Both the position numbers and the translations under genes were made by a program. The notes beneath the pieces were generated by a model. The model searched no databases and was not told where the DNA came from. It was given only the letters and a program-made list of their open reading frames with translations. Positions 40,556 to 57,812 of a stretch of DNA of 64,000 nt are shown here, one piece after another; position 1 is the stretch's first letter; each line of letters starts with the position of its first letter. This DNA is from Apilactobacillus kunkeei DSM 12361 = ATCC 700308 (GTDB taxonomy: Bacteria; Bacillota; Bacilli; Lactobacillales; Lactobacillaceae): positions 1 through 64,000 of the forward strand of contig NZ_JXDB01000001.1 in the NCBI RefSeq assembly GCF_001281265.1, read 5' to 3'.

Positions 40556-40617
40556 AATAAGGTACTGTATGGGTGCATCCATTGATGAAGTATACATATT
40601 TGAGAGGGGCTTTATTA

Positions 40618-42702: not shown

Positions 42703-42724
42703 TATCAGTTATGGGCAGTCAGGG
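42703..42724. repeat. attL: attL-type site (direct repeat, left)
   Basis: 22 bases identical to 57731-57752, covering the last 13 bases of the tRNA plus 9 bases beyond. After it the two sequences diverge. Confidence 0.9.
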
Positions 42725-42799
42725 TTTTGAACCTTATATTTACATAAATGCCGTAATATCAGTAATAGTAAGACTTTAGGGTGCTTCAAAATGGTTAAT

Positions 42800-42822
42800 T
42801 GAATGCCAAAATGAATGCCATT
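42800..42822 (+). repeat. Integrase arm-type sites, left
   Basis: Two direct AATGCCA heptads (42802-42808 and 42814-42820) within 23 bases that recur exactly at 57618-57640 next to the right end. Such repeats are typical binding sites for the N-terminal domain of tyrosine integrases. Confidence 0.7.
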
Positions 42823-42825
42823 TGC

Positions 42826-43986
42826 CTAAAAATTAAGATAATTTACTAATTTATCTACAGCATCTTTATTCTGTTGATCAGTAACATGAGTATATACATT
42901 CATAGTAGTTTGAACATCTTCATGTCCTAAACGCTCTTGAACTTCTTTGATTGAAGCACCTGATGCGAATAGTGCGGATGCATGAGTATGCCTAAAACCG
43001 TGAACCGTTATCTTGGTTAATCCATTTTCCTTGATAATCTTGTGTAGCCATTTAGCAGGTGTATTCAAACACTTGTGAGTGTTATGGACCGTAGCGAAGA
43101 TTAATTGACTATTCTTGAACGTATTGAAGCCTAGCATTAAATAACGTTGTTTCTGTTGAGTCCGCCACCTTTTTAGATAATTCAAGGTGGAAGTATCTAA
43201 CAGGATTGTACGTCTACCTTTTTTAGTCTTAGGGGCTTGAACAATTTGTTTACCCTTAATGCCTTGTGTTAGCGTCTTATTGATGCGGATAGTACCATTA
43301 GCAAAATCAACGTCATCCCACGTTAGAGCTAAGCATTCGCCCCGTCTTAATCCCGCAAATGCCAATACTCTGAACAGGGTAAATTTTTCTAATTCCTTAT
43401 TAGCATCAATACAGTTGAAGAACTGAATTAATTGTTGCTTATTCCAGAAGTTAGCGAATTTATCGCCTTGCTCTTCTTGTTTTTTAGGGATGCTTACCAA
43501 CTTACAAGGATTAGCATTACCACTATTCTCTATATAGCCTTCTTTAATGGCGTAATCAAATACCATTGATGTGTAGTGATACCACTTTGTAAATGTAGCA
43601 GGGGCAATCTTGAACCACTTATTGACCGCCTTTTGAACATCATTAATCTTGATTGTGCGGATGCGTTTATTACCAAATTCTACTAGAATATGATTTTTGA
43701 ACATCCCCGCTGTCCTTGCAAATGTAGACTCACGAACGGTATTGATATAGGCTTGATACCATTGTTTATATACATCTTCAAACTTAATATTATTTTCTTC
43801 CTTAATGCCACCTTGTGCAATTTCTAGCTCTAATCTAGATGCTTCAAGAGTGGCTTTTTTCTTTGTTGTGAACCCACGTCTAGTAGTCTTGATAGGTTTA
43901 CCAGTTTGGGCATCAGTGCCCGCATATAGCTGAAATTTATATAATTTCTCGCCATTTGCATTGGTGTAACTCTTGATACTTGCCAT
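42826..43986 (-). CDS. int: Phage-type tyrosine integrase
   Basis: Catalyses site-specific recombination between attP and the tRNA-Lys attB. 386 residues: an N-terminal arm-binding AP2-like domain (about 1-60, MASIKSYTNANGEKLYKFQL), a core-binding domain (about 65-165), and a catalytic domain with Arg in FAGLRRGECLALTW (about 211), HGFRHTHASALF (about 326), LGHEDVQTT (about 351) and the nucleophile Tyr in MNVYTHV (about 364). AAAGGGATGA precedes the ATG. The gene stop lies next to the arm sites and about 100 bases from attL. Confidence 0.96.
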   Translation of the reverse strand: MASIKSYTNANGEKLYKFQLYAGTDAQTGKPIKTTRRGFTTKKKATLEASRLELEIAQGGIKEENNIKFEDVYKQWYQAYINTVRESTFARTAGMFKNHILVEFGNKRIRTIKINDVQKAVNKWFKIAPATFTKWYHYTSMVFDYAIKEGYIENSGNANPCKLVSIPKKQEEQGDKFANFWNKQQLIQFFNCIDANKELEKFTLFRVLAFAGLRRGECLALTWDDVDFANGTIRINKTLTQGIKGKQIVQAPKTKKGRRTILLDTSTLNYLKRWRTQQKQRYLMLGFNTFKNSQLIFATVHNTHKCLNTPAKWLHKIIKENGLTKITVHGFRHTHASALFASGASIKEVQERLGHEDVQTTMNVYTHVTDQQNKDAVDKLVNYLNF

Positions 43987-44006
43987 AAAATCATCCCTTT
44001 AATACC

Positions 44007-44024
44007 GTTGGGGAATGGTATGTA
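44007..44024 (+). repeat. Dispersed motif GTTGGGGAATGGTATGTA, copy 1
   Basis: Present between int and the repressor gene. Near copies are at 45502-45523 (with an AA insertion) and, inverted, at 57559-57577. Confidence 0.5.
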
Positions 44025-44037
44025 TTGGGGGATGTAG

Positions 44038-44862
44038 TTAATCTTTGATGTTGAATTCTTTATATAATTTATCAATCTTCTTTTCTGTATCATACAAAAT
44101 ATTATTTATTTGTTTTTCAAGGCTTGGATTAATATTTTTTGCTACTCGTACACTTCTATGTTCTCTATTCACTACATATATGAGTTTATATATTTTGTCT
44201 GCATATATATCTTCTATACTGTTTCTAACTAAGTTAAGCAATCCTTTATTGTCGGGTGTATATTCAGCAAAATGATTTTCTACAACGTCACGTATTATAA
44301 ACATTAAAATATTTCTATCTTTAGGAGATACACCAGCACCTTTTGCCCTTTCTAAAGACAATTTTAAGTAATATTTCTCAGCTTCTTCTATATTTTGAGA
44401 AAAATAATTAGACAGAACTTCATTTTCTTTTTGAGTTAAATTGTTAAAATCTTTAACCCGAAATCCTTTAGGGTATCTAACAAAAGAGTCATTTAAAAAT
44501 AATGAATTAATCTCACTAGCAGCCCTTAAAAAACTTTTGTCTTCATACGACATTTCTTTTTTTAAATCACTATTATATTTATCTGCTGAATATGATAATG
44601 CAAATGATATTAAACTTTGTATTTTATCTTTTAAAGATCCATTTAATAGCTCTTCTTTTGAATAGCCACTTAGTTTACTTATTTCATCTAATCTTTCATC
44701 ACTCGGTATAGATTTTCCCTTTTCCCACTTTGATATATTTCCCTTATTTGCTTTTGGATGAAATAAATTACCAAATTCTTCTTGGGTTTTCCCTAGATTT
44801 TTTCTCGTTTGTAGAATGGTATTTGATAAAAAGCTAACATTTATACTATTATCTCTTTCCAT
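44038..44862 (-). CDS. XRE-family repressor of the element (Stl/CI-like)
   Basis: 274 residues. The N-terminal HTH_3 reads LQTRKNLGKTQEEFGNLFHP, then ANKGNISKWEKGKSIP (about 17-53). The rest is helical with no peptidase motif, so it lacks CI-type self-cleavage and would need an inducer protein, as SaPI Stl does. It is divergent from the xis-like gene, and three 18-bp repeats in between are its probable operators. GGGGGGT precedes the ATG. Confidence 0.85.
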   Translation of the reverse strand: MERDNSINVSFLSNTILQTRKNLGKTQEEFGNLFHPKANKGNISKWEKGKSIPSDERLDEISKLSGYSKEELLNGSLKDKIQSLISFALSYSADKYNSDLKKEMSYEDKSFLRAASEINSLFLNDSFVRYPKGFRVKDFNNLTQKENEVLSNYFSQNIEEAEKYYLKLSLERAKGAGVSPKDRNILMFIIRDVVENHFAEYTPDNKGLLNLVRNSIEDIYADKIYKLIYVVNREHRSVRVAKNINPSLEKQINNILYDTEKKIDKLYKEFNIKD

Positions 44863-44896
44863 TTTTACCCCCCTTTTTATATTTGGTTTTATATAA

Positions 44897-45005
44897 AGTT
44901 GTTCAATGTTGCTTGACTTTATTTTATGCTATGGTTATTATTTAGTCAATGAGTTGCTTAATGTTTCTCTTTTTATTTTTCATAATAAGTTGCTCGATGT
45001 TTCTT
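44897..45005. promoter_or_regulatory. Three operator repeats between repressor and xis
   Basis: AGTTGCTTAATGTTTCTC (44952-44969) and AGTTGCTCGATGTTTCTT (44988-45005) are near identical, and AGTTGTTCAATGTTGCTT (44897-44914) is a weaker third copy. They lie in the divergent promoter region, so the XRE repressor is the likely ligand. Confidence 0.7.
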
Positions 45006-45024
45006 AAAGAAAGGAGATGACAAA

Positions 45025-45201
45025 ATGAATAACCAATATTTAACTTATAAGGAAGCTATGAATTATATGAACATCCATAGCTATATTACATTAAATAAGA
45101 TGATTGATGATGGCTTACCAGCTTTGAAAATTGGTAATGTTAAGCGAATTAGCAAGGATGAACTAGATAAATACCTTGCTTCTAAAACTGTTAGGGGATG
45201 A
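45025..45201 (+). CDS. Excisionase-like small DNA-binding protein
   Basis: 58 residues: YLTYKEAMNYMNIHSYITLN then KMIDDGLPALKIGNVKRISKDELDKYL, the helix-turn-helix and wing pattern of the Xis/MerR-like helix_turn_helix_17 family. AAAGGAGATG precedes the ATG. It is the first plus-strand gene after the operators, as expected for xis or an early regulator. Confidence 0.75.
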   Translation: MNNQYLTYKEAMNYMNIHSYITLNKMIDDGLPALKIGNVKRISKDELDKYLASKTVRG

Positions 45202-45205
45202 AGTT

Positions 45206-45475
45206 ATGGAAGTAAAGCTACCAAGTGCCCAAGAGCAAGAATTATATAGCAGTATTCAAGGATTGCTATTAAAAGCAGTTGATGATGCCCAGAAGCTAAC
45301 AGGCATTAATAATGATTGGATTAAGGGTAGGAAGAACGCTTGTAAGTATCTTCAAATATCAGACCAAACATTAACTAAATTTATTGATAGGGGGCTTAAA
45401 TACCACCTTATTGATGATATGAATATTACTTTCTTTAGTAAGAAAGAGATTTCAGAATTCTTGAGAGCACAATAA
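45206..45475 (+). CDS. Small HTH protein, excisionase/phage regulator-like
   Basis: 89 residues. The C half, NACKYLQISDQTLTKFIDRG followed by FFSKKEISEFL, looks like an excisionase-type winged helix; the N half is a charged helix. The ATG at 45206 has AGGGG 8 bases upstream and lies 4 bases after the previous stop, so the genes are coupled. Function unknown beyond DNA binding. Confidence 0.65.
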   Translation: MEVKLPSAQEQELYSSIQGLLLKAVDDAQKLTGINNDWIKGRKNACKYLQISDQTLTKFIDRGLKYHLIDDMNITFFSKKEISEFLRAQ

Positions 45476-45501
45476 AAAAGCATGACTACTAAATAATAAA
45501 T

Positions 45502-45523
45502 CCGTTGGGGAAAATGGTATGTA
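45502..45523 (+). repeat. Dispersed motif, copy 2
   Basis: CCGTTGGGG-AAA-ATGGTATGTA, matching 44005-44024 apart from an AA insertion, in the leader of the Rha-like gene. Confidence 0.5.
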
Positions 45524-45581
45524 GTTAGGATGATGTTTGTGTTGATGATTTAATTCTTTATAGATTGGAGATGCTTAATAT

Positions 45582-46283
45582 ATGAAAAACATTAATAAAG
45601 TTGACGATTCATTAGGATTGGATTTATTGGGAAATGGAATTGTATTTGCGAGTGATTTAAGTGAGAACGCAAAAATATATACTACCAATAAATCAATTTC
45701 AGATTTTGCACATATTGGAATGAAAGCTATAAATCAACTTATTGATAAGTATGATAATGAGTTAAATGCTAAAGAAATTTCCCCATTTGAAATGGATAAA
45801 TTAAATAGTCATAAAGTTGGTAGACCTAATAGAATTATTGGGCTAAATGAAGAAGATGCTATTTTTATTATTTCTCTTTTAAAAAATACTAAACAAGTTG
45901 TTAAGTTTAAACGTGCTTTATCAAAAGCATTTACTAGTATAAAAAAAGAATTATTAAAAAGACAAATTATTCATGTTCAAAGTAAACCTATTACCAAATC
46001 ATTAGGGGATGCGATAAAAGATAATTCAAATATGAATGGCAGTCATGATTATTTAAATTTGAATAAGCTGATATATAAAACAGCATTAGGAATTGATACT
46101 AGTAATTTAAGAAGGCAAAGAAACATCCCTAAAAATAATTCTATATCTAATTATTTAAGTACTGATGAGCAAGATATAGTTAATAAAGTTAAGAATGCGG
46201 TTATTGCTCTAAATATTTTGAATAAGGACTATGAAGAAATTAAATTATCTATTTCTAATCAAAAGTCAAAAGAAAGTGATTAG
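45582..46283 (+). CDS. Rha-family phage regulatory protein
   Basis: 233 residues. The N domain (about 32-125) has YTTNKSISDFAHIGMKAINQLIDKY, HKVGRPNRIIGLNEEDAIFIISL and KFKRALSKAFTSIKKEL, the Rha pattern. A helical C domain (about 150-230) ends with charged sequence, similar to antirepressor-type C domains. TTGGAGATG lies upstream. Rha proteins affect lysogeny and growth of phages; its job in a satellite is unknown. Confidence 0.7.
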   Translation: MKNINKVDDSLGLDLLGNGIVFASDLSENAKIYTTNKSISDFAHIGMKAINQLIDKYDNELNAKEISPFEMDKLNSHKVGRPNRIIGLNEEDAIFIISLLKNTKQVVKFKRALSKAFTSIKKELLKRQIIHVQSKPITKSLGDAIKDNSNMNGSHDYLNLNKLIYKTALGIDTSNLRRQRNIPKNNSISNYLSTDEQDIVNKVKNAVIALNILNKDYEEIKLSISNQKSKESD

Positions 46284-46285
46284 TG

Positions 46286-46426
46286 ATGCTTGAATATATT
46301 GTGAACCATATCTATTTAAATTCATTTGGTTTAATGATTTTAGTGCCAAGTATTTATTATTTAGGTAAATCAGTAGAAAAGCACGGATCATTGAAGGAAT
46401 TCTTGAAGGATATTGAAGAAGATTAG
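46286..46426 (+). CDS. Small membrane-anchored peptide
   Basis: 46 residues: a hydrophobic segment FGLMILVPSIYYLG (about 14-27) then a charged tail KEFLKDIEED. It starts 3 bases after the Rha stop with a weak ribosome site (AAAGTG) and ends just before the next AGGAG. Unknown. Confidence 0.5.
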   Translation: MLEYIVNHIYLNSFGLMILVPSIYYLGKSVEKHGSLKEFLKDIEED

Positions 46427-46437
46427 GAGATGTAATA

Positions 46438-46839
46438 ATGAAAACAGCTAAAGAAATTAGACAAATGCCGTTAGTAATGCAAATGTATGAAATGGCAAAA
46501 GAAAGCGGAGTCAAAATTAGCATTGGAGTCAAGATTAGCATTAAAGAAGCTTATAACACAGCAGTAGCATCTAATCTAGTAGATGAGCAAGGAGAAGCAA
46601 CTAAATGGGCTATAGATAATGGAATGGTAGCAGAGGTGAAGACTAGTGATTTTGTACATTTAGACTATCCAAATTTTATTGGTAATTTATATGATGATTA
46701 TGTAGAAGAAACTTCTTTAACTGATGAACCTATTATGAGTAATCGTGAATTCTACGAAATGATGTTGAGTGCTAACCTAGTTTATCCAGAAGGACTACCA
46801 ACACCAAAGGCAACCAAAATGGATAAGGCAACGCTTTAA
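46438..46839 (+). CDS. Unknown element protein, probably truncated by TAA
   Basis: 133 residues, acidic, no recognised domain. TAGGAGATG precedes the ATG. An internal duplication gives VKISIGVKISI (near 25-35). The frame stays open after the TAA at 46837-46839 and runs straight into the next open frame (46873) with coding-like sequence DWITSDELQAKMTVTEF, so one longer gene may have been split by a nonsense change. Confidence 0.55.
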   Translation: MKTAKEIRQMPLVMQMYEMAKESGVKISIGVKISIKEAYNTAVASNLVDEQGEATKWAIDNGMVAEVKTSDFVHLDYPNFIGNLYDDYVEETSLTDEPIMSNREFYEMMLSANLVYPEGLPTPKATKMDKATL

Positions 46840-46872
46840 GACTGGATAACGTCAGATGAATTACAGGCTAAG

Positions 46873-47091
46873 ATGACTGTTACTGAATTTATTGATGCTT
46901 GTGAACCATTGAAAAAATATGATGCTAAACACATTCAGAAAGTTGGAAATGGCTTTGGCTTTGATATGTCATTAGCATATGATCTGGCTAAGCGGGTTGT
47001 AAATGGGGAATTAGATGGTGATGTGGAAGCATCTAAAGCCATGATGAAGCGACTTGAAGAGCAGTTTGGCAATGATATTGAACCTCTTTAA
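46873..47091 (+). CDS. Unknown protein, possible 3' part of the preceding gene
   Basis: 72 residues, MTVTEFIDACEPL then VEASKAMMKRLEEQFGNDIEPL. It is in the same frame as the gene ending at 46839 and has no good ribosome site (ACAGG only). Either a separate small protein or the continuation of an interrupted gene. Confidence 0.45.
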   Translation: MTVTEFIDACEPLKKYDAKHIQKVGNGFGFDMSLAYDLAKRVVNGELDGDVEASKAMMKRLEEQFGNDIEPL

Positions 47092-47107
47092 GAATAGGAG
47101 CATGAAC

Positions 47108-47239
47108 ATGAATACATTAGGGCATACAAAAAGAGCTACTATACTTTGGACGGTGGTCAGTAGCTCTAATATTAAAAGGCTTGTCTATACAGCTTTTTAC
47201 ATCCCTATTGTAGCAAATTTAGGGGGGAACTTTGAATAA
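47108..47239 (+). CDS. Small hypothetical peptide
   Basis: 43 residues, MNTLGHTKRATILWTVVSSS and a hydrophobic region VYTAFYIPIVANLGG. TAGGAG lies 8 bases before the ATG. A 9-bp inverted repeat AGAGCTACT/AGTAGCTCT (47132-47140, 47159-47167) runs through it, so the region may act as RNA rather than protein. Confidence 0.35.
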   Translation: MNTLGHTKRATILWTVVSSSNIKRLVYTAFYIPIVANLGGNFE

Positions 47240-47514
47240 TGAAAGATAATAAACAATCAATAGAAATGCAATCAGATGATTTTAAATCTGAAATGATTAA
47301 GAAAAAACTATCACAAAGCTATTCAGCTATTAGAGATTATCTAAGCGTAATTGAGTTGAATTACAGAAATAAGTATGAGCAGATGAATTTAAGCAATCTA
47401 AGTGCTTTACTATTTGAAGATGGGGCATTCATACATTTAGATTAGCTATTAGAGACATCATCAGAATCAATAGATGATGCACTGATAAGCATGATTGAAG
47501 CTAAGAACAATTAA
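47239..47514 (+). pseudogene. Small element gene with in-frame TAG
   Basis: ATG at 47239 with GGGGGAA upstream encodes 68 residues (EMIKKKLSQSYSAIRDYLSV) and stops at TAG 47443-47445. The same frame continues with coding-like LLETSSESIDDALISMIEAK to TAA at 47512-47514. A nonsense change of CAG to TAG would explain it. The 68-residue form may still work. Unknown function. Confidence 0.5.
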
Positions 47515-47592
47515 GATTAGATAACTAAATTAGCACTAAAGACGGGACAGTTGATTTTGGTGCTTTTATTATTTTGGAAAGGTGGGACTGTT

Positions 47593-49851
47593 ATGAAATC
47601 CGATTTAGTTAAAGATACAACGCCATTAGAACAGCTTAATCCATGGGATTATATTAAAGTGTTATCAAGTAACCATATTTTTATGTATCCACTTAAAAAA
47701 GGGACTAAAGAGCCCGCAATTAAGGCATGGAACGAGAATGCCACTTATGATATTGGACAATTAGAAACATGGCTAAAACCAGACCAAAACGGCAATATTT
47801 CATATGATGTAGCTATGATACCATTGAAGAGCGGATTAATCACGATTGATATTGATGATCCAAGTGAGCATGCTAATAGTACAGGCATGGAATGGATTAA
47901 AGAAAATGAACGAAATGGAAATAGATTGCATGAAAATAAAGTAGCTATTGAAAGAACTAAGAATAACGGACTTCACTATATCTATAGATATGATTTACCA
48001 AACGAAAGCATACCAACAGATTTAAAAATATCAGGTGTTGAAGTTAAAACTAATTCTACAATTATTTATCCAAGTGATAGTTATAAATTAATTACTAATA
48101 GCTTTTTAGACAATGTTTGTGTGCTTGCTAGTGATGAAATGGATGTAATGCCTAAATGGCTTAAATCATCCGTAAATGATGCGATTTTAAAGCATGAACA
48201 AAACAAGCGAGCGAAATCAGAACATAATAAAGGTAAGAGCATTAATCAAAAAGCTATGCAGTGGGTAATTAATTTTAATGAAATGTTATTAAATGGAATC
48301 CCAGAACATGAACGTAACGAGAGACTAACTAGCGTTACTGGTAGTTTGTTTCATACTGGTGCGGATAACAAAACAGTTTGGCAACAATTACAGTTGATCA
48401 ATGATAAATTTGTATTTCCACCATTACCGAATAAAGAATTAAAGGGTATTTTCAACAGCATTGCTAAGAGAAATCATAGCATTATTAAAGCAACGGAATT
48501 AGATGATAAAGCTGAACAGAACCAACGGAATGCCCAATTAGCATTTAATAATAACGGCAATCCTAGAACCAATTTTGCCACTAATTTTACTAATATTTGT
48601 GAATATGATGAGCATTTTAAATCATCAATCAAATATAACGAATTTATTAACTCAGTAGTTATTAAACATGGCGATACATGGAAACGGTGGGGAGATCTAG
48701 ATGAAACCAGGATAAGGATTTACATTGAGCGTAAATACAATATGACCGCAAATGTTCCTAGAACCATGTATCAAGGAATTGAAGAATACGCTTTAAAAAA
48801 CACCTTTAATCCAGTTAAAGATTTAATCAACATTCAACAGTGGGACGGTAAAAAGCGAGTTGATAGCCTATTTATTGATTATTTAGGTGCAGAAGATAAT
48901 AATTACAATAGATTAGTTGCTCGTAAATTTATGGTTGGTGCGGTATCAAGAGTATTTCATCCCGGCATTAAGTTTGATTTAATGCCTATTCTAACTGGAA
49001 AGCAGGGAATTGGTAAAAGTACGCTTGTTAGTAAACTAGCTAGTGGTTATTTTTTAGATAATCTAAGTAAAATGGATAGTAGTAACAAGGATGATACTAT
49101 GAAATTGCAAGATAGTTGGATCATTGAAGTGGGCGAATTAGCACCTTTTAAGAACTCAAAAACGGACAATGTAAAATCATTTGTCAGTGCTACTACAGAT
49201 ATTTACCGTAAACCATTTGGGCAGGCCAATAGCATTTATAAACGGCATAATGTATTTATCGGAACGACTAATGAACAACAATTCTTATCTGATAAAACTG
49301 GTAACCGTAGATATTTAACAGTTGAATGCGGAGTTAATGAAATAAAGAATAAACCAATAGATATTAGCAATAACACTTTATATCAAATATATGCAGAAGC
49401 TAAGCATCTTATGGAACAAGGTGAATTACTATATTTAACACCAGATGAAGAAAAGACAGCTAACGAACAGCGAACTAAAAATGAAACCTATGAACCAGAA
49501 GATGAAGCAATCAAGGAATATCTAAACATGAAAGTACCTATTAATTGGGATGATTATGATTTATTCCAAAGATCTAGTTATTATGAACGTGTATTTCAGA
49601 GTAATAGATATTCTAGTAATGAAGAAGATACGACCCCACTAAGTCAAGATGAATTAGTACCAATAACCGCAGTAGCAACTAGGGAACTATTGAGCATTCC
49701 ATTAAACAAATTGAAAAATCCAAGCATCCAAGGAACGCAACAATCATTAACTAAGAAGATTAGCTACACAATGAGTGGATTAGATGAATGGAAGCAGTCT
49801 AATAAAGTTAAATTGTTTGGAAGGTATGTTAGGGGATATAAGAAAAAGTAG
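47593..49851 (+). CDS. Primase-polymerase/VapE-type helicase (pri-rep)
   Basis: Replication protein of the element, about 752 residues from the ATG at 47593 (GGTGGG upstream). The N domain is a prim-pol fold with LITIDIDDPSEHA near 89 and HYIYRYDLP near 128. A PriCT-like segment (LKGIFNSIAKR) is near 288. The C half is a VirE/VapE SF3-like helicase with Walker A LTGKQGIGKSTLVSKLA near 468, WIIEVGELAPF near 511 and GTTNEQQFLSDKTGNRRYL near 557. Iterons begin directly after the stop, as in SaPI/PICI rep-ori modules. Confidence 0.9.
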   Translation: MKSDLVKDTTPLEQLNPWDYIKVLSSNHIFMYPLKKGTKEPAIKAWNENATYDIGQLETWLKPDQNGNISYDVAMIPLKSGLITIDIDDPSEHANSTGMEWIKENERNGNRLHENKVAIERTKNNGLHYIYRYDLPNESIPTDLKISGVEVKTNSTIIYPSDSYKLITNSFLDNVCVLASDEMDVMPKWLKSSVNDAILKHEQNKRAKSEHNKGKSINQKAMQWVINFNEMLLNGIPEHERNERLTSVTGSLFHTGADNKTVWQQLQLINDKFVFPPLPNKELKGIFNSIAKRNHSIIKATELDDKAEQNQRNAQLAFNNNGNPRTNFATNFTNICEYDEHFKSSIKYNEFINSVVIKHGDTWKRWGDLDETRIRIYIERKYNMTANVPRTMYQGIEEYALKNTFNPVKDLINIQQWDGKKRVDSLFIDYLGAEDNNYNRLVARKFMVGAVSRVFHPGIKFDLMPILTGKQGIGKSTLVSKLASGYFLDNLSKMDSSNKDDTMKLQDSWIIEVGELAPFKNSKTDNVKSFVSATTDIYRKPFGQANSIYKRHNVFIGTTNEQQFLSDKTGNRRYLTVECGVNEIKNKPIDISNNTLYQIYAEAKHLMEQGELLYLTPDEEKTANEQRTKNETYEPEDEAIKEYLNMKVPINWDDYDLFQRSSYYERVFQSNRYSSNEEDTTPLSQDELVPITAVATRELLSIPLNKLKNPSIQGTQQSLTKKISYTMSGLDEWKQSNKVKLFGRYVRGYKKK

Positions 49852-49854
49852 TTT

Positions 49855-50134
49855 GGATACACTAGGTACACTAAGGGTACGCTTGATTTAAGCTAAGTGT
49901 ACCCTTTATAAATGTTGATATAATATCTATGAGTTGCTGTTGGGTACACTAGGTACACTAAATTACTTAAGTGTATAGAAAAAAGTTATTATATTTGTTC
50001 GTAACTATAATATATTGTTTAGTGCTATTTCAGCGTACCAAGTGTACCTATAGCTTATAACGGTTGTTATTATAACAATTACAGGCAGTACGATATGTTA
50101 TTTATAAGTGTACCTTAGCGTACAAAGCGTACCC
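49855..50134. other. Iteron-type replication origin of the element
   Basis: GGTACACTA-type repeats: GGATACACTA (49855), GGTACACTA (49865 and 49952), GGGTACACTA (49942) on the left; inverted AAGTGTACC at 49895, 50040 and 50106, and variants with AGCGTACC at 50032, 50117 and 50126, mostly on the right. An AT-rich core (49977-50031) lies between. Iterons around an AT-rich core directly after the primase-helicase gene match the SaPI-type origin. Confidence 0.75.
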
Positions 50135-50158
50135 AAAAGATTGATAGGAGATTAAAGA

Positions 50159-50514
50159 ATGCAAAATAATTTAGATAAATTAAATAAACAGTATCTTATA
50201 AATACTGATTTATATAACGTCTTAAAGTATATGACTATTGATTTTATGGCAGACACTAATGACATCAACCCAGAATGTGTTGAACGTAAAATGTAAATTG
50301 ATGAATTATTAATGATATTGATAGCACTAAACAAGATTATGAGTTAGTAAGAGATCATGCTAGTGCTATAGTTTTGAATAGTGAAAATGAACGTTTTTAA
50401 ATTGAATTTACACGCTATCAAAAAGTTAATTTCATGGGATACTATAAATAATTTAATGGTGATATGGATTTAATTGAGCGTGAAATGTACCGAGACTTTA
50501 AACAAATGTTTTAA
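50159..50514 (+). pseudogene. Decayed small element gene
   Basis: AGGAG and an ATG at 50159 open 45 residues (LDKLNKQYLINTDLYNVLKY) ending at TAA 50294. Coding-like sequence goes on as IDELL, then in another frame as NDIDSTKQDYELVRDHASA to TAA 50398, IEFTRYQKVNFMGYYK to TAA 50449, and FNGDMDLIEREMYRDFKQMF to TAA 50512. That is three internal stops and one frameshift. Original function unknown. Confidence 0.65.
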
Positions 50515-50700
50515 CAGAAGAATATTTAGAGATTAGGGGTAACTCTATCAATTAGGGATGCCTTTTAATGTCTCTTAAACGTTGATACAATGCGGTTCAT
50601 AGATGATTTATAACGTTAATTATGATATAATATAGTCATTGGATATATCTTGATAATTGTTATATCATCACACGAAATAACTTCAAAGATAACGAAATAA

Positions 50701-50725
50701 GAGCAGTGATGACTCACTGCTTTTT
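50701..50725 (+). terminator. Terminator before the terS-like gene
   Basis: AGCAGTGA-TGAC-TCACTGCT followed by TTTTT. It separates the replication genes from the packaging-type gene. Confidence 0.8.
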
Positions 50726-50762
50726 ATACATAATGCTCTGATGTTAGGGGGGAATCTTTTAA

Positions 50763-51320
50763 ATGAGGACTAGCGTATTTGATGTTGAAGCAATTAGATA
50801 TGAGTTTAGATATACAAGCGGTACGATCAAACAAATAGCAGAACGCAATGGAATTAACTTTAATACGTTGCGTAGCTATGCATATCGCCATAATTGGAAT
50901 AAACGTAAAAGAAGAATTAAAAAGCTAGACCGTGTATATAATCAGAGCGATTACAGCGACATTCCTTATAGAGCAATTGTATTTGCTATTATGATTGGTT
51001 ACTATGGTTGGAAGCAAGATTTTGCTTATTATCATTGTTATTGTACAAAGCCAGAAACTTCTAGAGTTAATGCTTATCGTTTATTAAGACGTGATGATAT
51101 TAAAGAGTTGATAGCTAAGTGCAATGATATTAAATTGAATGGTGGTAATCTATTAAAAGAATTGCCATTTAATTGTGGATTACCAGTTTTGGATGCTGAA
51201 ATGTTAAATGATAGTTTTGAGTTCTGGAACAGTAAATTTGGATATTCTAGATACTGCTTTGGGGGCTCTAGTTTACATCAAAAGGGAATGGCATTTCGTA
51301 GCATGTGTGGTTTCAAGTGA
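50763..51320 (+). CDS. Small terminase subunit-like protein
   Basis: 185 residues. The N-terminal HTH reads SGTIKQIAERNGINFNTLRSY then RHNWNKRKRR (about 20-55), a terminase-small-type DNA-binding start. The middle has YCTKPETSRVNAYRLLRRDDIKELI (about 95-120), matching the VNA-RLLR pattern of phage TerS proteins. The C-terminal 50 residues (GGSSLHQKGMAFRSMCGFK) are unusual. GGGGGGAA precedes the ATG. In PICIs a private TerS redirects helper-phage packaging to satellite DNA. No large terminase is present. Confidence 0.65.
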   Translation: MRTSVFDVEAIRYEFRYTSGTIKQIAERNGINFNTLRSYAYRHNWNKRKRRIKKLDRVYNQSDYSDIPYRAIVFAIMIGYYGWKQDFAYYHCYCTKPETSRVNAYRLLRRDDIKELIAKCNDIKLNGGNLLKELPFNCGLPVLDAEMLNDSFEFWNSKFGYSRYCFGGSSLHQKGMAFRSMCGFK

Positions 51321-52395
51321 TACATGGTTATGTAACAAAACACAGTAAATCCTAGTTGTATCAAGGGATGAGCATGTAACGATTTTTGTCCATTTCTTGT
51401 AACAAGCGTTACATTTAAAAGAGATACAAAACGACTATAAAAGCATATGTAGCAAGGGTTTAGGGTTGTAACGTTTTGTCCATTTTGGTTACAAGTAGGT
51501 ATATGAACATAATCTATCGTAACTATTAGTTTAACAAGTGTTTTGATGCTATTAGTGAGTAGTGTTCAATGCATCTAAAATACTTGAAAATGCTAGTATT
51601 TTTATGATTATGTATTCATTTGGATTGCATCAAAAATGATGATAAATGATAACTTTTCAAGAGTTTATAAATGTGATTAATTAGTTATATTATGCATCAC
51701 TGATCGTGGCATTTTAGGGCATTTAAGGCGGTGTACATTATAGATATTTCAGGTTAGGCAAAAAGATTGAGCAAGTTAGGAACCATCATACATATTTCTC
51801 CTATCTGAATATTATTATGCCATAAACCGTCCAGGTTTATCTGTGCCAATATTCAGTATAGGAGCAAATTGAAAACTCAAATGAATCTCCATCTAACATA
51901 CTTAGTAAAGGTGCTACATGGGCTAGATCTTTTAATGCAAAATCAATAATGGATGCACTAAGATAATTTCAAAATTTAATAATTAAAAAACAGTTTTGAC
52001 GAACTAAGTATTCGTTTTAACCATTTTTTCTATGCATTAAACTAAGAAACTTTATAAATTTGTTTATTCACTGTTATTGACTTATTATGCTGTGACTGGA
52101 ATATGGACAGTCACCAGAAGTTCTTTAATTATATTAATTCTGATCAATATAACACTTAAACCACTTAATAATCTCGTTATTAAAATAAAATACGAGTACT
52201 TTCGTGAAATTTACGTATCTATTATTATCAAACGGATTGAAATGGGCTGTATAGACTCTGTTGAATCCACATATCGATTCATTAACCATCCAAATTAACC
52301 AATTGCTAACAGCAACTACAGAACCAATAATACAATTGACTAGTTCATTTACGATTTTAGATTTATAATCGTCTCAAAAAGGGCGAGGCGATTTT
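51321..52395. other. Non-coding stretch with repeats and a long hairpin
   Basis: No convincing gene. Two copies of a motif GTAACG-TTTTGTCCATTT ending in TTACAAG or TTGTAACAAG lie at 51376-51406 and 51468-51495. A long inverted repeat (arms 51798-51813 and 51848-51864) encloses an inner TAAACC/GGTTTA stem. Just after it an open fragment (about 51862-51965, KGATWARSFNAKSIMDALR) looks like the 3' remnant of a gene. GTGACTG/CAGTCAC arms occur at 52092-52114. Possible packaging site or degraded cargo. Confidence 0.45.
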
Positions 52396-52643
52396 ATGAG
52401 TAAGACGATTCAAAAACTAGCTACCGAGCTGCACATCACCAAACAAGCTATATGGACGCTATCGAATTATTAAAACGTCAATTAGAGGTTAAAGATGCTC
52501 AAATTGAAAAACTTCTAGATGAACTAACGAAACAGCAGGACTTGTATTAGGATTTGTTAAACGAAAACAAATTGCTGAGAGGCCAGACTGATCAATCAAT
52601 TAGCAAACAGGAACGACATCGACACTGGGGGGTGTGGCGGTGA
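52396..52643 (+). pseudogene. Remnant of a DUF536-type plasmid replication-associated gene
   Basis: ATG at 52396 gives SKTIQKLATELHITKQAIW, the HTH start of DUF536/RepB-accessory proteins of lactobacillar plasmids, then the frame is lost. In another frame coiled-coil sequence follows (IELLKRQLEVKDAQIEKLL, DELTKQQDLY), a TAG near 52548, then DLLNENKLLRGQTDQSISKQ to TGA 52643. The middle is deleted. It suggests past contact with a plasmid. Confidence 0.65.
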
Positions 52644-52733
52644 TTATGTTCAATAAATTAAAATAATATCTTACATGTTATAATCACACGCAAAGGGGAG
52701 TCCCCCTTGAATTAATTAATCTCTTTTAAGTGA

Positions 52734-52763
52734 CCAGTTAGCAGCATTAAGTCTGTTAACTGG
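52734..52763 (+). terminator. Terminator-like hairpin
   Basis: CCAGTTAGCAG/CTGTTAACTGG arms, loop of 8, followed by TTATTTT. It probably ended the decayed gene upstream. Confidence 0.6.
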
Positions 52764-52836
52764 TTATTTTACTAGGCTAAGAAACGCTAGATTTTCGTTT
52801 ATTCACAGTTACTGATTAAGTAGGATATATAATTAA

Positions 52837-52876
52837 AAAATACGTTGCTACTAAATTAATAGTTACAACGTATTTT
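52837..52876 (-). terminator. Terminator of the restriction-modification operon
   Basis: Perfect 11-bp arms AAAATACGTTG and CAACGTATTTT. On the minus strand a T run follows (TTTTTT including the arm). It lies 52 bases past the last methyltransferase stop. Confidence 0.8.
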
Positions 52877-52927
52877 GTATTCATGAATTAATGAAAATTA
52901 AACGTTAGAATCTATGTTAAATTAATA

Positions 52928-54232
52928 CTAATTATTTTTTTTAAAAATTAACATATGATCAATCTTTATCTTTCCACCGTGATTTTTTCTATCAAATCCC
53001 ATAAAATGATTTTTTATTACATAACTCCATCTATTTTCTAAAGTAAATCCGGCATCATTAGCTATTGATATTAAAATATCAGCAGTAGGAATTTCAACAT
53101 TGCTTACTTTACTATTTCCAATAGCCATAACATAATGTCCTTCATCATTTAGAACTTTTTCCGAAGCATTAAAATGTTCTTTCATAAATGAAAAATATTT
53201 ATAAATAATATAGGCATGCTTTTCTCCATTTTTATTATCTTTTAACACTTCAGTTATACTATTATCTAATAACGGTATATTAAAATTATCTTTTTTACTT
53301 AAGAAGCCACTATACTCTTTTTTAGGTATTAAAGTAGTACCAGTATACTTTCTTCTCTTTTTATTCTGATTAGTTTGAGTGTTCATATCAAATAAATCAC
53401 CTATCCAAAATAATTCAACCATTTGATTATACACATAATCTATTGATTTTATATACGGTGGAGAGGTTACTATTAAATCCACTTTAGTTGGAAGAATTTT
53501 AGAAAAATCAGGATTTCCATCTGATTTTATAATAATAGATTTTGATTTCTTATTCCAACGATCATTTAATTCTTTAAATCCATTTACAAATAGATTTAAT
53601 TGCTTTTGAAATAGTGAATAAACTTCAGCTGGCTTCTTTACTTTAGTCCCGGATACATAGGTCTTTTGTGATTGATTATCAGCATTAGAGACTCTTCTTA
53701 TTATCCCTGAAAATGCTATTATAAATGCATCATAATAGTCATCTATATTATCAATACTAGAAAATTTATTTGGTATATCATCAATTAGTGTTCTTAATTT
53801 ACTTAACTTAATAATTGCTTCATTAGTAAACCAATGATTTAAATTATCGGTTTTAGGATTAAAAAGTGGCTTAGCATTTTCTACATTATCCATTATCCAA
53901 TGGCTTATATTTGAAAATATTGTTTGATCAATAGGTGTAGATTTTACTTTTGAGATTAAACACGATAGTGGATCTATATCAATTCCATATGAATTATATC
54001 CATTTGAAATTCCCTCTACAACAGTTGTTCCACTGCCTACAAAAGGATCCAATACTATTTTATTTTCACCCCTAAGATACGATTTAATAGCCCACTCTGG
54101 TATTTGAGGTATGAATTTTCCGGGATATTTATGAAATCCATGTGTTGATGCAGTTACTTTATTATTATCAATACTTACCTCAGTACCATTAGTAATATTT
54201 TTAGGAAGGTTTTTATAATGTATTATTGTCAT
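52928..54232 (-). CDS. DNA methyltransferase 2 (N4-C/N6-A type)
   Basis: 434-residue amino-methyltransferase. Motif I (SAM binding) is VLDPFVGSGTTVVEGISNGY near 60, preceded by a HGFHKYPGKFIPQIP stretch; motif IV is TSPPYIKSIDYVYNQ near 254. The long gap between motifs I and IV gives an alpha-like order, and TSPPY is common among N4-cytosine enzymes. The C-terminal HYVMAIGNSKVSNVEIPTAD block is shared with the next gene upstream. AAGGAG precedes the ATG, one base after the neighbour's stop. Last gene of the operon; protects DNA from the HNH nuclease (inferred). Confidence 0.85.
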   Translation of the reverse strand: MTIIHYKNLPKNITNGTEVSIDNNKVTASTHGFHKYPGKFIPQIPEWAIKSYLRGENKIVLDPFVGSGTTVVEGISNGYNSYGIDIDPLSCLISKVKSTPIDQTIFSNISHWIMDNVENAKPLFNPKTDNLNHWFTNEAIIKLSKLRTLIDDIPNKFSSIDNIDDYYDAFIIAFSGIIRRVSNADNQSQKTYVSGTKVKKPAEVYSLFQKQLNLFVNGFKELNDRWNKKSKSIIIKSDGNPDFSKILPTKVDLIVTSPPYIKSIDYVYNQMVELFWIGDLFDMNTQTNQNKKRRKYTGTTLIPKKEYSGFLSKKDNFNIPLLDNSITEVLKDNKNGEKHAYIIYKYFSFMKEHFNASEKVLNDEGHYVMAIGNSKVSNVEIPTADILISIANDAGFTLENRWSYVIKNHFMGFDRKNHGGKIKIDHMLIFKKNN

Positions 54233-54233
54233 T

Positions 54234-55562
54234 TTACTCCTTTTTAAGAATCACAATAGATTCTCTCATATAATTCATTACATCAGTTAGATATTTTCTT
54301 TGTTGTGAACTAGTAGTTAGATGTCTAGTAACGATGATGTTTTCAACTTTATAGCCAATTTTTTCAGCAATTTCAGCAACTAATAAATCTGAAGGTACTA
54401 TTATACCTCCATAAGCTGAGTTACCAATTACTATTGCTACTCTTCCATTTTTATCAGTTTTTATGAATAGATTTCTTAATAACGTTTCCATATCATCAAA
54501 ATAACCTTTAATGACATCAGGTATTTTTTTGCTCCATAATTTCTTTTTGGCCAGTATATTTGTTATATGATTTACATATTCATCATGATTATTTATTTCT
54601 TTAGATACGGTTGCACTAGCGTTAGATCTCATACCAGTTCTTTTAAGTTTTCTTAATTCTTCATGGCTATTAATAAATTGTCCAAGCCATAATTCTACCT
54701 TATGAATTTCAAAATAATCAAAAAAATTGACATAAGGTGGAGAAAACACTGTTAATTCCACTTTATCCGGAACTTTAAGGACATCATCCATTGCTGAACC
54801 CAAATAAAAATTAGGTTCAGGTGATTGAATTCGATTGTCTTTTAAGTCTTTAAAAATTATGTTTATGTGACTAAGTATTTGATCTTTTACAAACTTAAAC
54901 TTATTTTCAGGAAAATGTTCATCTTCCCATTCTTTTATTGGTATATTTATATATCCGCTTTTTAATCTTTTTCTATTTTTATATTTCAAACCATTCCCTT
55001 CTTTTTTTACGTTAGAAACTGATTCTATTACAGATAACCATGATAGAAAAAAAACATCTCTTATTTTTTCGTCACTAATATCATTTATAAAATCTCTTAT
55101 TTGAAGTAACGATTGCAAAATATCATCATTAAAGTATTTATCTGCTAAGTTAAACTCTGTAGTTCGATGTCTATAATCTGGTTTTATATTGCTTAATTTA
55201 TATATTTCTTCATTAATATACTCTACATCTGTTGATTTATAATTTCTGTTTTCTACTTTAGCTATAAATATAGATATTGGATTAACGTCAATTCCATATG
55301 ACTTTAAGTTGTTATATCTAGCAGCTAGTACAGAAGATCCGCTACCAACAAATGGGTCCAATATTGAACCAGTAATATTAAACTTCTTAATTAGTTTATC
55401 TACTAATTCATATGAATATCCTTCCCTATACGGGTACCATCTTTGAAATGGGATATCATTAGTAGTTTGAAAATGAACTAGCTTAGAATATTCCTCATCT
55501 GATACTATATTGTATTTAGACTCTAAATTATCTAAGTATTGTTTATCTATATAATTTGACAA
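54234..55562 (-). CDS. DNA methyltransferase 1 (N4-C/N6-A type)
   Basis: 442 residues, TTG start with AGGAG upstream. It has the same plan as its downstream neighbour: RWYPYREGYS, motif I ILDPFVGSGSSVLAARYNN near 71, motif IV VFSPPYVNFFDYFEIHKVELW near 271, and VAIVIGNSAYGGIIVPSDLL near 385. The two differ most between motifs I and IV, where target recognition is expected. Two enzymes suggest that each modifies one strand of an asymmetric site, as in type IIS systems (inference). Two bases separate it from the nuclease gene. Confidence 0.85.
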   Translation of the reverse strand: MSNYIDKQYLDNLESKYNIVSDEEYSKLVHFQTTNDIPFQRWYPYREGYSYELVDKLIKKFNITGSILDPFVGSGSSVLAARYNNLKSYGIDVNPISIFIAKVENRNYKSTDVEYINEEIYKLSNIKPDYRHRTTEFNLADKYFNDDILQSLLQIRDFINDISDEKIRDVFFLSWLSVIESVSNVKKEGNGLKYKNRKRLKSGYINIPIKEWEDEHFPENKFKFVKDQILSHINIIFKDLKDNRIQSPEPNFYLGSAMDDVLKVPDKVELTVFSPPYVNFFDYFEIHKVELWLGQFINSHEELRKLKRTGMRSNASATVSKEINNHDEYVNHITNILAKKKLWSKKIPDVIKGYFDDMETLLRNLFIKTDKNGRVAIVIGNSAYGGIIVPSDLLVAEIAEKIGYKVENIIVTRHLTTSSQQRKYLTDVMNYMRESIVILKKE

Positions 55563-55564
55563 CG

Positions 55565-56836
55565 CTATTCTCCTAAAAATATATTTTCTTCATGATAATA
55601 AATATATTCCTCATTTAAATCCATATTTTCTGGTATTTTTACACTTTTATTTCTGCTATTTAGCACTCTCATAATATTAACTTGATTAAATGTACCAGTT
55701 ACATCATCATTGGAATATATAAATTTTGATGGTATAACCGCTCCATTTTTATCAAATGTAAATAATCCAGCATCAAATAATTTATGACATGATAAACATA
55801 GTGCAATTCCATTATTTACATCGTTTCGATGATAATTAATAGAATCATGCTTATCAATACTAAATGGCATTATATGTGCAGCTTGAATAAAAAGCTTTCC
55901 TTCTGAATCACAACCAGGAATTGCACATTTATAACTGTAGTTATCCTTAACTGACTCGGACCATTTTGGGGATCTTTTAATTTGTTTCCTAGATATTACA
56001 TTATTACCAATTGATTTATCATTATTACTAGACTTGCTATGAGATATTGTTAATACTGCATCAATTAGTTCTGGAGATCCATATTTTTTAAATTCTTGAA
56101 TTAATGCATTCCTAAAAGGTGCACCATTTGATAGTGGGTTATTTTTTATTGATTCTGTTGTTAATGAATCAGATGGAATATAATTTTCTACCGAAATAAT
56201 CATATCATTAAAATAATTATTAATAACTAGGTTACTACTATCTTCTTTAAACAATCCAGAATTAATTAAATCGGTTTTCCAGTAAGTATAATTTTTACTA
56301 GTTTTTCTTTCTGTATCACCATCAATCAAATATTTTAAATTTTCTTCACTAATATAACCATCATGACTTTTTATTATCTTTATTAAGTTTTTAATTATAA
56401 GGCCATCTTCATTAGGTATATCATCAAATCCCTTTTTACCTGGTGTAAAGGAAAATGTAGATAATGCATTAGCAATTATAAGCCTGTAAATAATATTAGT
56501 ATCCATCCCATTACCTTGATTAATAGAGTTAAACCATAATAATCCTAATTGAGTCCACTTTAATGGAAGTTGAGAACCATCTTTTATAAATCCTAATCTA
56601 ATCCAATTCCTAATTTTAGTTTGCATTGTAGATGGTTGTATAGACTCATCACCAACTTTAGCTTGAGCAGAAAAATCGTATATCCATTTATTTTTAGGAT
56701 TTCTTCTATCTGCTCCCCAATTTTTACCAATAAATTTAAATTTATTACTTGCTTCCACAAGTTTTTTTATAGCTGCCAATTCAGATAGTTGACTACCTGT
56801 TCTAGAATGAAACCAGTCTCCATAAAAATTAGGCAT
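55565..56836 (-). CDS. HNH endonuclease, probable type II restriction enzyme
   Basis: 423 residues. The C part (about 298-355) is an HNH nuclease: YKCAIPGCDSEGKL, QAAHIMPFSID, then NGIALCLSCHKLFDAGLFTF, with His/Asn/His and two zinc-type Cys pairs. The N part (about 1-250) is helical with winged-helix-like pieces (MQTKIRNWIRLGFIKDGSQ), likely for DNA recognition. It is first in an operon with two methyltransferases 1-2 bases apart, so a restriction role fits. GGGGTGAT precedes the ATG. The very high A+T of all three genes suggests recent transfer. Confidence 0.8.
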   Translation of the reverse strand: MPNFYGDWFHSRTGSQLSELAAIKKLVEASNKFKFIGKNWGADRRNPKNKWIYDFSAQAKVGDESIQPSTMQTKIRNWIRLGFIKDGSQLPLKWTQLGLLWFNSINQGNGMDTNIIYRLIIANALSTFSFTPGKKGFDDIPNEDGLIIKNLIKIIKSHDGYISEENLKYLIDGDTERKTSKNYTYWKTDLINSGLFKEDSSNLVINNYFNDMIISVENYIPSDSLTTESIKNNPLSNGAPFRNALIQEFKKYGSPELIDAVLTISHSKSSNNDKSIGNNVISRKQIKRSPKWSESVKDNYSYKCAIPGCDSEGKLFIQAAHIMPFSIDKHDSINYHRNDVNNGIALCLSCHKLFDAGLFTFDKNGAVIPSKFIYSNDDVTGTFNQVNIMRVLNSRNKSVKIPENMDLNEEYIYYHEENIFLGE

Positions 56837-57682
56837 ATTTTTATCACCCCAATGTTTAAATATATCATTACTATTTTAACGCTTAAGGGATTGTTAAAAC
56901 CATCAATATTTGAATTTAATAGTGATATATGAAGGTATTATTTTGTTTTATGAGCCTATGTCAATAATCTCACTAAAGATGAGAATAGTTTTTTGTTTTA
57001 GCAATATTTATTATAGCCGTTGTAACTGTTCCTATGTCAAATTTTGGCACAGTTTTACCTATATGTTAACCCGAATCCGATCTGTGTTGTACCAATGAAT
57101 GTAATTCTCTACTTTTCAAATTAAATCGCTTTGATAGTTGAATACCGTAACGAAATGGAATGCTATTACTTTGAGCATCCATAATTGGATTGTCGGAATA
57201 CCGACCTAAATTGGGGTGGTATTATAAATACATGTATCAAATCACGACATGTTAGGCAGTTATTTTATTTGGTGGCGTAATTTTACGCCGTGAGATTTAT
57301 ATAACTGGTGTGTATTTTTACGCAGTAGTATCTCGTAGCCGAAAATCCGTCCATGAGATTTATATACTGGTGCTGAAAATTAAGCTACAGCCGAAAATTA
57401 GTCCGCAGTGCTATTAACAGTGAGGGATGCTTAAAAATCAGCTAACCTAATTCATTTAGTTAGTACAATCATACATATATACTAATGAACTAGTTAAATG
57501 AGAGCGTACGGGTTTATATGATGCGAAATAAAAAGCTACCTATTTATATAGATAGCCTTACATCCCATTCCCCACGATTAAAATATTTAATTATGATGCT
57601 AAATTCTAATTAATATGTGAATGCCAAAATGAATGCCATTGAATGCCAATTAATCATTTTAAATGGATGCCTAGAGAAACAA
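56837..57682. other. Non-coding right end with palindromes and degenerate repeats
   Basis: No convincing gene. It holds the likely promoter region of the HNH operon (56840-56930), a GTCGG-AATA-CCGAC palindrome (57192-57205), GGCGTAA-TT-TTACGCC (57274-57289), and two degenerate copies of a 52-63 bp unit, with GAGATTTATATA at 57292 and 57355 and AGCCGAAAAT at 57337 and 57389. An inverted copy of the dispersed GGGGAATGG motif lies at 57559-57577. Confidence 0.5.
57618..57648 (+). repeat. Integrase arm-type sites, right
   Basis: Three AATGCCA heptads (57620, 57632, 57642). The first 23 bases are identical to the left arm sites at 42800-42822, in the same orientation. Confidence 0.7.
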
Positions 57683-57729
57683 AAAAGCTATCATAGTAAG
57701 GTTTTTAACGCCTTATCATGATAGCTTTT
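57683..57729 (-). terminator. Element-borne terminator for tRNA-Lys
   Basis: Arms AAAAGCTATCAT and ATGATAGCTTTT with an inner GTAAGG/CCTTAT stem. On the minus strand TTTTTT follows. It lies just downstream of the tRNA 3' end but inside the element, and so replaces the ancestral terminator moved to 42656-42700. Confidence 0.8.
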
Positions 57730-57730
57730 A

Positions 57731-57752
57731 TATCAGTTATGGGCAGTCAGGG
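57731..57752. repeat. attR: attR-type site (direct repeat, tRNA side)
   Basis: 22 bases identical to 42703-42724. Bases 57740-57752 are the 3' end of the intact tRNA-Lys. Confidence 0.9.
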
Positions 57753-57812
57753 GATCGAACCCTGGACCCACGGATTAAGAGTCCGTTGCTCTGCCAGCTG
57801 AGCTAACTGCCC
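57740..57812 (-). tRNA. tRNA-Lys (anticodon CTT)
   Basis: Minus strand, 73 bases: acceptor GGGCAGT pairs with ACTGCCC plus discriminator A; D arm AGCTCAGCTGGCAGAGC; anticodon loop CTCTTAA with anticodon CTT; T loop GGTTCGATCC. CCA is not encoded. Its 3' end is the attachment site of the element. It lies upstream of walR, divergently. Confidence 0.96.

Follow-up and report, generated by a model that had tools for sequence, protein, structure and literature searches.

A probable phage-inducible chromosomal island with restriction-modification cargo in a tRNA-Lys gene of Apilactobacillus kunkeei

Background

The phage-inducible chromosomal islands (PICIs) of Gram-positive bacteria, namely, the Staphylococcus aureus pathogenicity island (SaPI)-like elements and the 'Javan' satellites of Streptococcus, are phage satellites of about 15 kb that lack structural genes. 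As described in PMC6092414, the integrase and repressor genes of these islands point leftward, xis and pri/rep point rightward, and accessory genes lie at the far end, while the replication origin is found directly 3' of rep with two sets of iterons around an AT-rich region. Further traits listed in that paper are genes exclusive to PICIs, packaging by means of a helper's pac/cos or of a terminase small subunit (TerS), the latter in only some of the islands, and a dependence on phages for induction, interference, and entry into phage-like particles. PICI-type satellites are also described for a lactic acid bacterium of another genus, as the Streptococcus thermophilus chromosomal islands (StCI), with which the comparison made here is by description alone, and restriction systems carried on satellites are in print (both from PMC13376191). 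Here we analyze an element at positions 42703-57752 of the first 64,000 nucleotides of contig NZ_JXDB01000001.1 from A. kunkeei DSM 12361, a stretch that is referred to as the window over its full length. A sequence-only reading had proposed that this element is a PICI-like satellite. Our comparisons support this proposal, and with a probability of roughly 80% we regard it as an Apilactobacillus phage satellite of the PICI type that has inserted into tRNA-Lys(CTT). The evidence that carries this reading is an empty integration site, a Rha-like gene typical of satellites, an origin with the PICI layout, and sister elements without structural genes. The element shares the size of about 15 kb, the gene layout, and the absence of structural genes with the Gram-positive PICIs, but differs from them in that its TerS gene looks decayed.

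Results and discussion

Integration in tRNA-Lys(CTT)

The ends of the element and its target are as follows.

42703-42724, plus strand: attachment site (att) copy at the integrase end, 22 bp, identical to 57731-57752
57731-57752, plus strand: att copy at the tRNA end, 22 bp, inside the 3' part of tRNA-Lys
57739-57813, minus strand: tRNA-Lys (CTT), intact, the integration target (ARAGORN; Rfam RF00005, 69.8 bits)

The exact 22-bp ends in tRNA-Lys that had been claimed are there: both copies are identical, they are spaced 15,028 bp apart, and the second lies within tRNA-Lys(CTT). The G+C content is 30.3% in the element and 37.3% in the remainder of the window. Sixteen Apilactobacillus genomes, including the host's own, made up the sample, and tRNA-Lys(CTT) was examined in 13 of them, G008, G012, and G014 being left out. 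The check for empty tRNA-Lys sites in related genomes, which had been suggested earlier, gave an exact empty site in G005, where the joined flanks of the window element (300 + 370 bases) form a single alignment of 669 nt with 93.4% identity. Integration is confirmed because the site is empty in G005, which is also the nearest relative for the tRNA-side flank (98%). Two of the 13 sites are occupied, both by satellite-like elements (the host's own and that of A. micheneri, G006, with two att copies), and 10, including that of G005, show a single att copy in the fetched stretch. Among these 10, the copy in G001 has a mismatch, the site in G010 spans a contig break, and G011 and G013 were covered only 2-4 kb upstream; in the fetched stretch of G003 no att copy was recognised. 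No full prophage was seen at tRNA-Lys(CTT) in the 13 genomes. According to PMC6092414, PICIs have specific attachment sites that temperate prophages do not use, and in this small sample tRNA-Lys(CTT) is such a site.

Next to its tRNA-Lys site G005 has 5.3 kb of DNA with ABC-transporter genes (L039 961-6134), lying between sequences that are adjacent in the window. Since it holds these transporter genes, this insertion was ruled out as a satellite.

Gene order, Rha-like gene and replication origin

From the integrase end to the origin region the element holds the following features.

42826-43986, minus strand: tyrosine integrase, 386 aa (Pfam Phage_integrase, E 3.2e-29)
44038-44862, minus strand: Stl/CI-like helix-turn-helix (HTH) repressor, 274 aa (HTH_3, E 4.2e-6; phage repressor PHROGs)
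44897-45003, plus strand: three operator-like repeats, AGTTG(C/T)T(C/T)(A/G)ATGTT(T/G)C, at 44897, 44952, and 44988 in the gap between repressor and xis-like genes
45025-45201, plus strand: HTH_17/excisionase-like protein, 58 aa (HTH_17, E 2.6e-6; Tn916-Xis, E 0.087, below the Pfam cut-off)
45206-45475, plus strand: second small HTH protein, 89 aa (HTH_17, E 3e-4, below cut-off); the mechanical open reading frame (ORF) opens at 45176
45582-46283, plus strand: Rha-like regulator, 233 aa (phrog_2657, E 6.5e-27; Pfam Phage_pRha, E 6e-5, below cut-off)
46283-47445, plus strand: small ORFs at 46283-46426, 46438-46839, 46873-47091, and 47239-47445, from the ORF list
47593-49851, plus strand: fused primase-polymerase and VapE helicase (pri-rep), 752 aa (Prim-Pol, PriCT_1, and VapE, E 1.8e-72)
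49866-50132, plus strand: presumed replication origin, an AT-rich stretch (about 49962-50030) between two sets of GTAC(A/G)CT repeats, 10 in all
50159-50296, plus strand: small ORF adjoining the origin, 45 aa, 52-55% identical in the G012 and G006 elements

This order, integrase and repressor on one side and xis-like gene, Rha, pri-rep, origin, TerS, and cargo on the other, is the Gram-positive PICI order as given in PMC6092414. The 'Javan' satellites have Rha-like genes of their own that are homologous to the one in the window, whereas among the matches listed their integrases are only about 37% identical to that of the window.

The Rha assignment made earlier stands on the PHROG match, the Pfam match being below cut-off. 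In the phage collection 177 records match the protein, and each of the best 20 is a satellite phage of Streptococcus. When 60 of the 177 were sampled evenly, 51 carried a satellite label, one was an unlabelled 12.9-kb Streptococcus phage, and eight were full-length phages (six of Salmonella and two of Acinetobacter). Judged from these matches the gene appears to be typical of satellites but not exclusive to them.

The pri-rep and its iteron origin, both of which had been predicted, were found as described: the three domains are in one protein of 752 aa, and directly behind its gene there are 10 GTAC(A/G)CT sites within 280 bp, far above the at most two that were found in 300 Markov-shuffled copies of the element. 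Around the AT-rich stretch four of the five repeats in the left set are on the plus strand and all five in the right set are on the minus strand. The locus thus has the PICI origin layout, that is, a position directly 3' of rep, two iteron sets, and an AT-rich core; this likeness is one of layout alone. The element of A. timberlakei (G012) has its origin in the same place with the same repeat, and those of A. micheneri and of the Lacticaseibacillus rhamnosus phage JB1P3 have theirs in the same place with other repeats. A genome scan with the pri-rep alone gave no confirmed relative, and the integrase alignment was taken instead.

The integrase that had been claimed is borne out by its Pfam match, and its identity is 80% to that of A. 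micheneri, 75% to A. timberlakei, 74% to A. ozensis, and 51% to JB1P3. Of the claim of an Stl-like repressor with operators, the HTH repressor and the three operator-like repeats stand but homology to Stl beyond the HTH does not; relatives were found for the HTH part only, and 'Stl' as a proven homologue was rejected since the match is confined to it. The operator motif, which was derived from its three copies, occurs nowhere else in the 64 kb as an exact match, whichever strand is read, and allowing two mismatches adds one site, at 17037; we infer that the three repeats may act as operators. The xis claim holds for the HTH_17 match, while the match to an excisionase is below the Pfam cut-off. 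Copies of the second HTH protein with 45-49% identity are present in four Apilactobacillus elements or prophages. None of the small ORFs at 46283-47445 has a Pfam family above cut-off, and the one at 46438-46839 matches phrog_25006, a PHROG of unknown function.

A probably decayed TerS gene and no structural genes in the ORFs scanned

50763-51320, plus strand: truncated or decayed terminase small subunit, 185 aa (phrog_51, E 8e-8, residues 17-54)
51321-52927, plus strand: degraded, largely non-coding stretch
51331-51493, plus strand: second repeat cluster, six GTTACA sites on both strands, directly behind the TerS-like gene

The sequence-only reading had named a TerS-like gene, and a small-terminase match is present, but the gene is probably decayed. 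Its Pfam match, Terminase_5, is below cut-off at E 0.086, and the alignment with six relatives of 254-309 aa ends at residue 47 in one case and at residues 115-134 in the other five. When the lost C-terminal part was sought with these six relatives, only fragments with E 0.1 or worse were found outside the gene. Short small terminases do occur, as in a prophage of A. quenuiae (G009) that has one of 183 aa, but that protein spans the part that is missing from the window TerS. Behind the gene, the region 50300-52927 gave only two stray matches of 38-40 bp in the 15 other Apilactobacillus genomes, and 49851-52927 gave no plasmid match. The GTTACA cluster in this region has six sites in 170 bp as against at most three in 300 shuffles; it may be what is left of a D5-type origin, or else a site for packaging.

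The absence of structural, large-terminase (TerL), and lysis genes was upheld. With small-terminase matches set aside, and with shorter overlapping ORFs outside the scan, no such families were found at E 0.1 in 16 ORFs of the element by Pfam and in 10 by PHROGs. Hidden packaging genes were sought with TerS, TerL, portal, capsid, connector, and closure proteins of JB1P3 in the window element and three sisters. In the window element TerL and capsid gave no match up to E 1, and the portal and head-closure proteins gave short matches only, at E 0.03-0.06; there is thus no credible capsid or portal homologue, the finding of which had been named as a refutation. The head, tail, large-terminase, and lysis genes by which a temperate prophage is recognised are therefore absent from the ORFs scanned, and so are the capsid and packaging genes of a capsid-forming PICI. 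A conjugative element was rejected since no such family is present in the ORFs scanned by Pfam.

The probable restriction-modification cargo

52928-54232, minus strand: DNA methyltransferase M2, 434 aa (PADLOC MTase_II, E 3e-65; Pfam N6_N4_Mtase; DPFVGSG, SPPY)
54234-55562, minus strand: DNA methyltransferase M1, 442 aa (PADLOC MTase_II, E 1e-81; Pfam N6_N4_Mtase; DPFVGSG, SPPY)
55565-56836, minus strand: HNH endonuclease, presumed restriction enzyme, 423 aa (HNH_2, E 3.9e-13; PADLOC HNH, E 4e-14)

The operon of an HNH gene and two methyltransferase genes was confirmed by PADLOC and Pfam matches and by the adjacency of the three genes, which are on one strand with a spacing of 1-2 bp. DPFVGSG and SPPY are motifs that we take to be those of methyltransferases. 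Methyltransferases and a restriction endonuclease in one operon are what defines a type II restriction-modification (RM) system, and the M2-M1-HNH operon is likely to be one; it may exclude competing phages, as had been suggested. Phosphorothioate (PT)-DNA restriction was rejected because the NCBIfam match, which scores far under the cut-off, extends over the HNH part only.

The Pseudanabaena plasmid ABRG53a carries an operon in the same order, with methyltransferases of 35% and 33% identity and an HNH gene, but the latter does not match the HNH protein of the window at E 0.01. In Cryobacterium and G229 (L250 2124-7786; L252 5007-11241) the methyltransferase pair is beside other genes and not HNH, and one neighbour of the Cryobacterium pair is annotated as an AAA ATPase. 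It looks as if the nuclease part beside the methyltransferase pair were exchangeable.

Outside the element, a membrane-protein-like gene of the window (40573-41127) has a TPP riboswitch upstream of it, at 40433-40524 (RF00059, 55.2 bits).

Sister elements and possible module exchange

Sister elements with integrases of 74-80% identity, a second HTH protein of 45-47%, and the primase domain are present in A. micheneri, A. timberlakei, and A. ozensis (G008). The first of these occupies the same tRNA-Lys, and its att copies, of which one has a mismatch, are separated by 12,612 bp. The other two are at tmRNA with flanking repeats of 19 and 37 bp, respectively. As cargo A. micheneri has a Panacea-domain gene and an uncharacterised partner, A. 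timberlakei has an intact TerS of 281 aa, and A. ozensis has a methyltransferase/ResIII pair (type III-like RM). In A. timberlakei the integrase and the pri-rep are each split by a frame change. Between the att copies of A. micheneri there is also a Na/H antiporter (L020 17663-18793), 45% identical to one left of the window element, which may be cargo there or the mark of a rearranged site.

An integrase census, in which 80 of 336 relatives were kept and a pri-rep was sought in the fetched flank, gave a pri-rep nearby in 20 of the 80; six of these loci have a JB1P3-like TerL and 14 do not. In two of the 14 (L059 and L118) the sequence beyond the primase is too short to judge. For the other 12 loci, 43 of the 63 ORFs of at least 90 aa beyond the primase were scanned, those left out being 18 primase-helicase ORFs and, from L051, two RM ORFs that were scanned under the label L017, while one VapE piece, apparently L055:4007-5137, was kept. 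The lists of families, which show 25 of 55 and 25 of 37, contain a single TerS as the sole packaging or structural family and no portal, capsid, or tail; Abi_2, GmrSD, Panacea, and MqsRA were also matched, though a number of these ORFs may lie in flanking host DNA. Among viral contigs (80 kept of 386) a pri-rep was found in 41, of which 39 have TerL, and this capsid-bearing majority presumably reflects a bias of the collection.

JB1P3 (PV668529, 14 kb) is the best phage-collection match of both the integrase and the pri-rep. Like the circular pAF20 of L. rhamnosus (NZ_CP094953), it shares with the window element an integrase of 51% identity, a repressor and two HTH genes in place, and a primase and a VapE helicase with a repeat-rich origin directly after the helicase. 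Unlike the window element, both have the primase and helicase as separate genes, and the place that the decayed TerS and the RM operon take in the window element is filled in them by TerS, TerL, portal, and capsid genes. Capsid-forming PICIs are those with their own capsid and packaging genes, and the plan of JB1P3 and pAF20 presumably resembles theirs. PMC8583084 reports for the JB1P3 host strain a prophage of about 15 kb, predicted on the strain GG genome, whose DNA was protected from DNase in the filtrates of induction experiments; by its name and size this prophage would be JB1P3.

The primase half of the pri-rep is common to all five Apilactobacillus copies that were compared. The helicase is of the VapE type in the window and A. 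timberlakei and of the D5 type in A. micheneri, A. ozensis, and G014. Behind it the repeats are GTACACT-type in the window and A. timberlakei, GTTACG-type in A. micheneri, and TGGGACA-type in JB1P3, which has VapE; none were evident in A. ozensis and G014 by simple word count. That helicase and repeats are exchanged together as a unit is only a suggestion because the cases are so few. Going further, we tentatively propose, at less than even odds, one Lactobacillales satellite lineage with this integrase and primase and with two exchangeable forms. One would be the capsid-bearing JB1P3 type and the other would be capsid-less, its packaging slot behind the origin holding a swappable defence cassette; helicase and origin repeats (VapE with GTAC(A/G)CT or TGGGACA-type, D5-type with GTTACG) would be exchanged together behind the conserved primase.

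Satellite, prophage remnant or plasmid

Several observations count against a satellite. The integrase and the primase-VapE are not specific to satellites, since they match 2,104 and 1,104 phage records, respectively, many of them full-length. The TerS is truncated, its homology being over by residue 134. The host genome has no genuine TerL, only an 18-bit match in an 857-aa ORF, and comparable weak matches (17-20 bits, ORFs of 817-857 aa) are present in 10 other genomes of the genus; therefore no resident helper is evident. Lastly, no convincing cos/pac-like sharing was found between the element and 12 prophage-region loci of six Apilactobacillus genomes, the TerL contig of G011 being left out. 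Besides integrase and helicase matches there were only short ones, including 56835-56866 (32 bp, E 0.001), which is largely non-coding, and these are taken as chance. The truncated TerS, the degraded stretch at 51321-52927, the lack of TerL in the host genome, and the frame-split integrase and pri-rep of the A. timberlakei sister would all fit a sub-case of the satellite reading in which a former PICI is now a fixed island kept for its RM system. This is a real possibility, if somewhat short of an even chance, but integrase, repressor, pri-rep, and origin are all open, and the two att copies have not diverged. Moreover, a helper need not reside in this strain as a prophage, and PMC9648514 reports a prophage of 35-50 kb in most A. 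kunkeei genomes of one study. Because the TerS is probably defunct, 'satellite' fits the kind of this element better than its present activity. Its mobility today is uncertain, given a TerS in probable decay, the degraded DNA that follows it, and a host genome in which no helper prophage is seen.

That the element is what remains of an ordinary temperate prophage after loss of its head, tail, and lysis genes is improbable. The A. quenuiae prophage, whose integrase is next to tRNA-Ser, has a related integrase (67%), second HTH protein (49%), and VapE together with its own TerL, portal, and capsid. G001 has integrase fragments of 69-78% identity within 5 kb of a TerL, and the integrase relatives L063 and L133 have no pri-rep but match portal and capsid families. 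Yet the A. quenuiae helicase is only 37% identical, its primase is a separate gene, and nothing in it matches the Rha-like protein, which is satellite-typical; the 12 related loci share the short plan, their listed families (25 of 55 and 25 of 37) comprising one TerS but neither portal nor capsid nor tail. A plain deletion of a close prophage, which had been named as a refuting case, is thus not what is seen among these prophages, of which that of A. quenuiae is the nearest. We also consider it unlikely that the element is an integrative plasmid that moves without a phage and uses pri-rep and origin as its replicon. Circular A. kunkeei replicons of 14.8 kb do have a primase-helicase of 31% identity, and a circular L. 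rhamnosus 'plasmid' of 14,130 bp bears the JB1P3 plan. However, the latter has capsid and terminase genes, no relaxase or mobilisation family is present in the ORFs scanned by Pfam, and the Rha-like gene is typical of satellites. The 14.8-kb circle that was examined (L009, OX335342, locus tags TOXIN2) has no match to the window integrase. A PICI-type satellite therefore remains the preferred reading.

Proposed cycle

For such a satellite the following cycle may be proposed. At rest the Stl-like repressor would use the three operator-like repeats to keep the divergent early operon silent, and derepression would come from a helper-phage product or, less likely, from the SOS response. The integrase and the xis-like protein would then excise a circle of 15,028 bp between the 22-bp sites, and the fused primase-helicase would start replication at the repeat-flanked AT-rich origin behind its own gene. 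Packaging would have to use the helper's particles because there are no head or tail genes. With a TerS that looks decayed, this copy would rely on a pac/cos-like sequence and the helper terminase or may no longer be mobilised efficiently. The cargo would act most likely as a type II RM system, protecting host and satellite from incoming phage DNA.

Significance

No published description of a satellite in Apilactobacillus was found among the matches listed, and this element and its sisters would add satellites for a genus of bee- and flower-associated lactic acid bacteria. The biology itself is unsurprising because restriction cargo on satellites is already known. If the two-form lineage is true, TerS would not simply have decayed; with its loss, self-packaging would have been traded for defence cargo. 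The sister set differs in integration site, in helicase and origin repeats, and in defence cargo, and therefore the trading of packaging for defence by satellites becomes testable.

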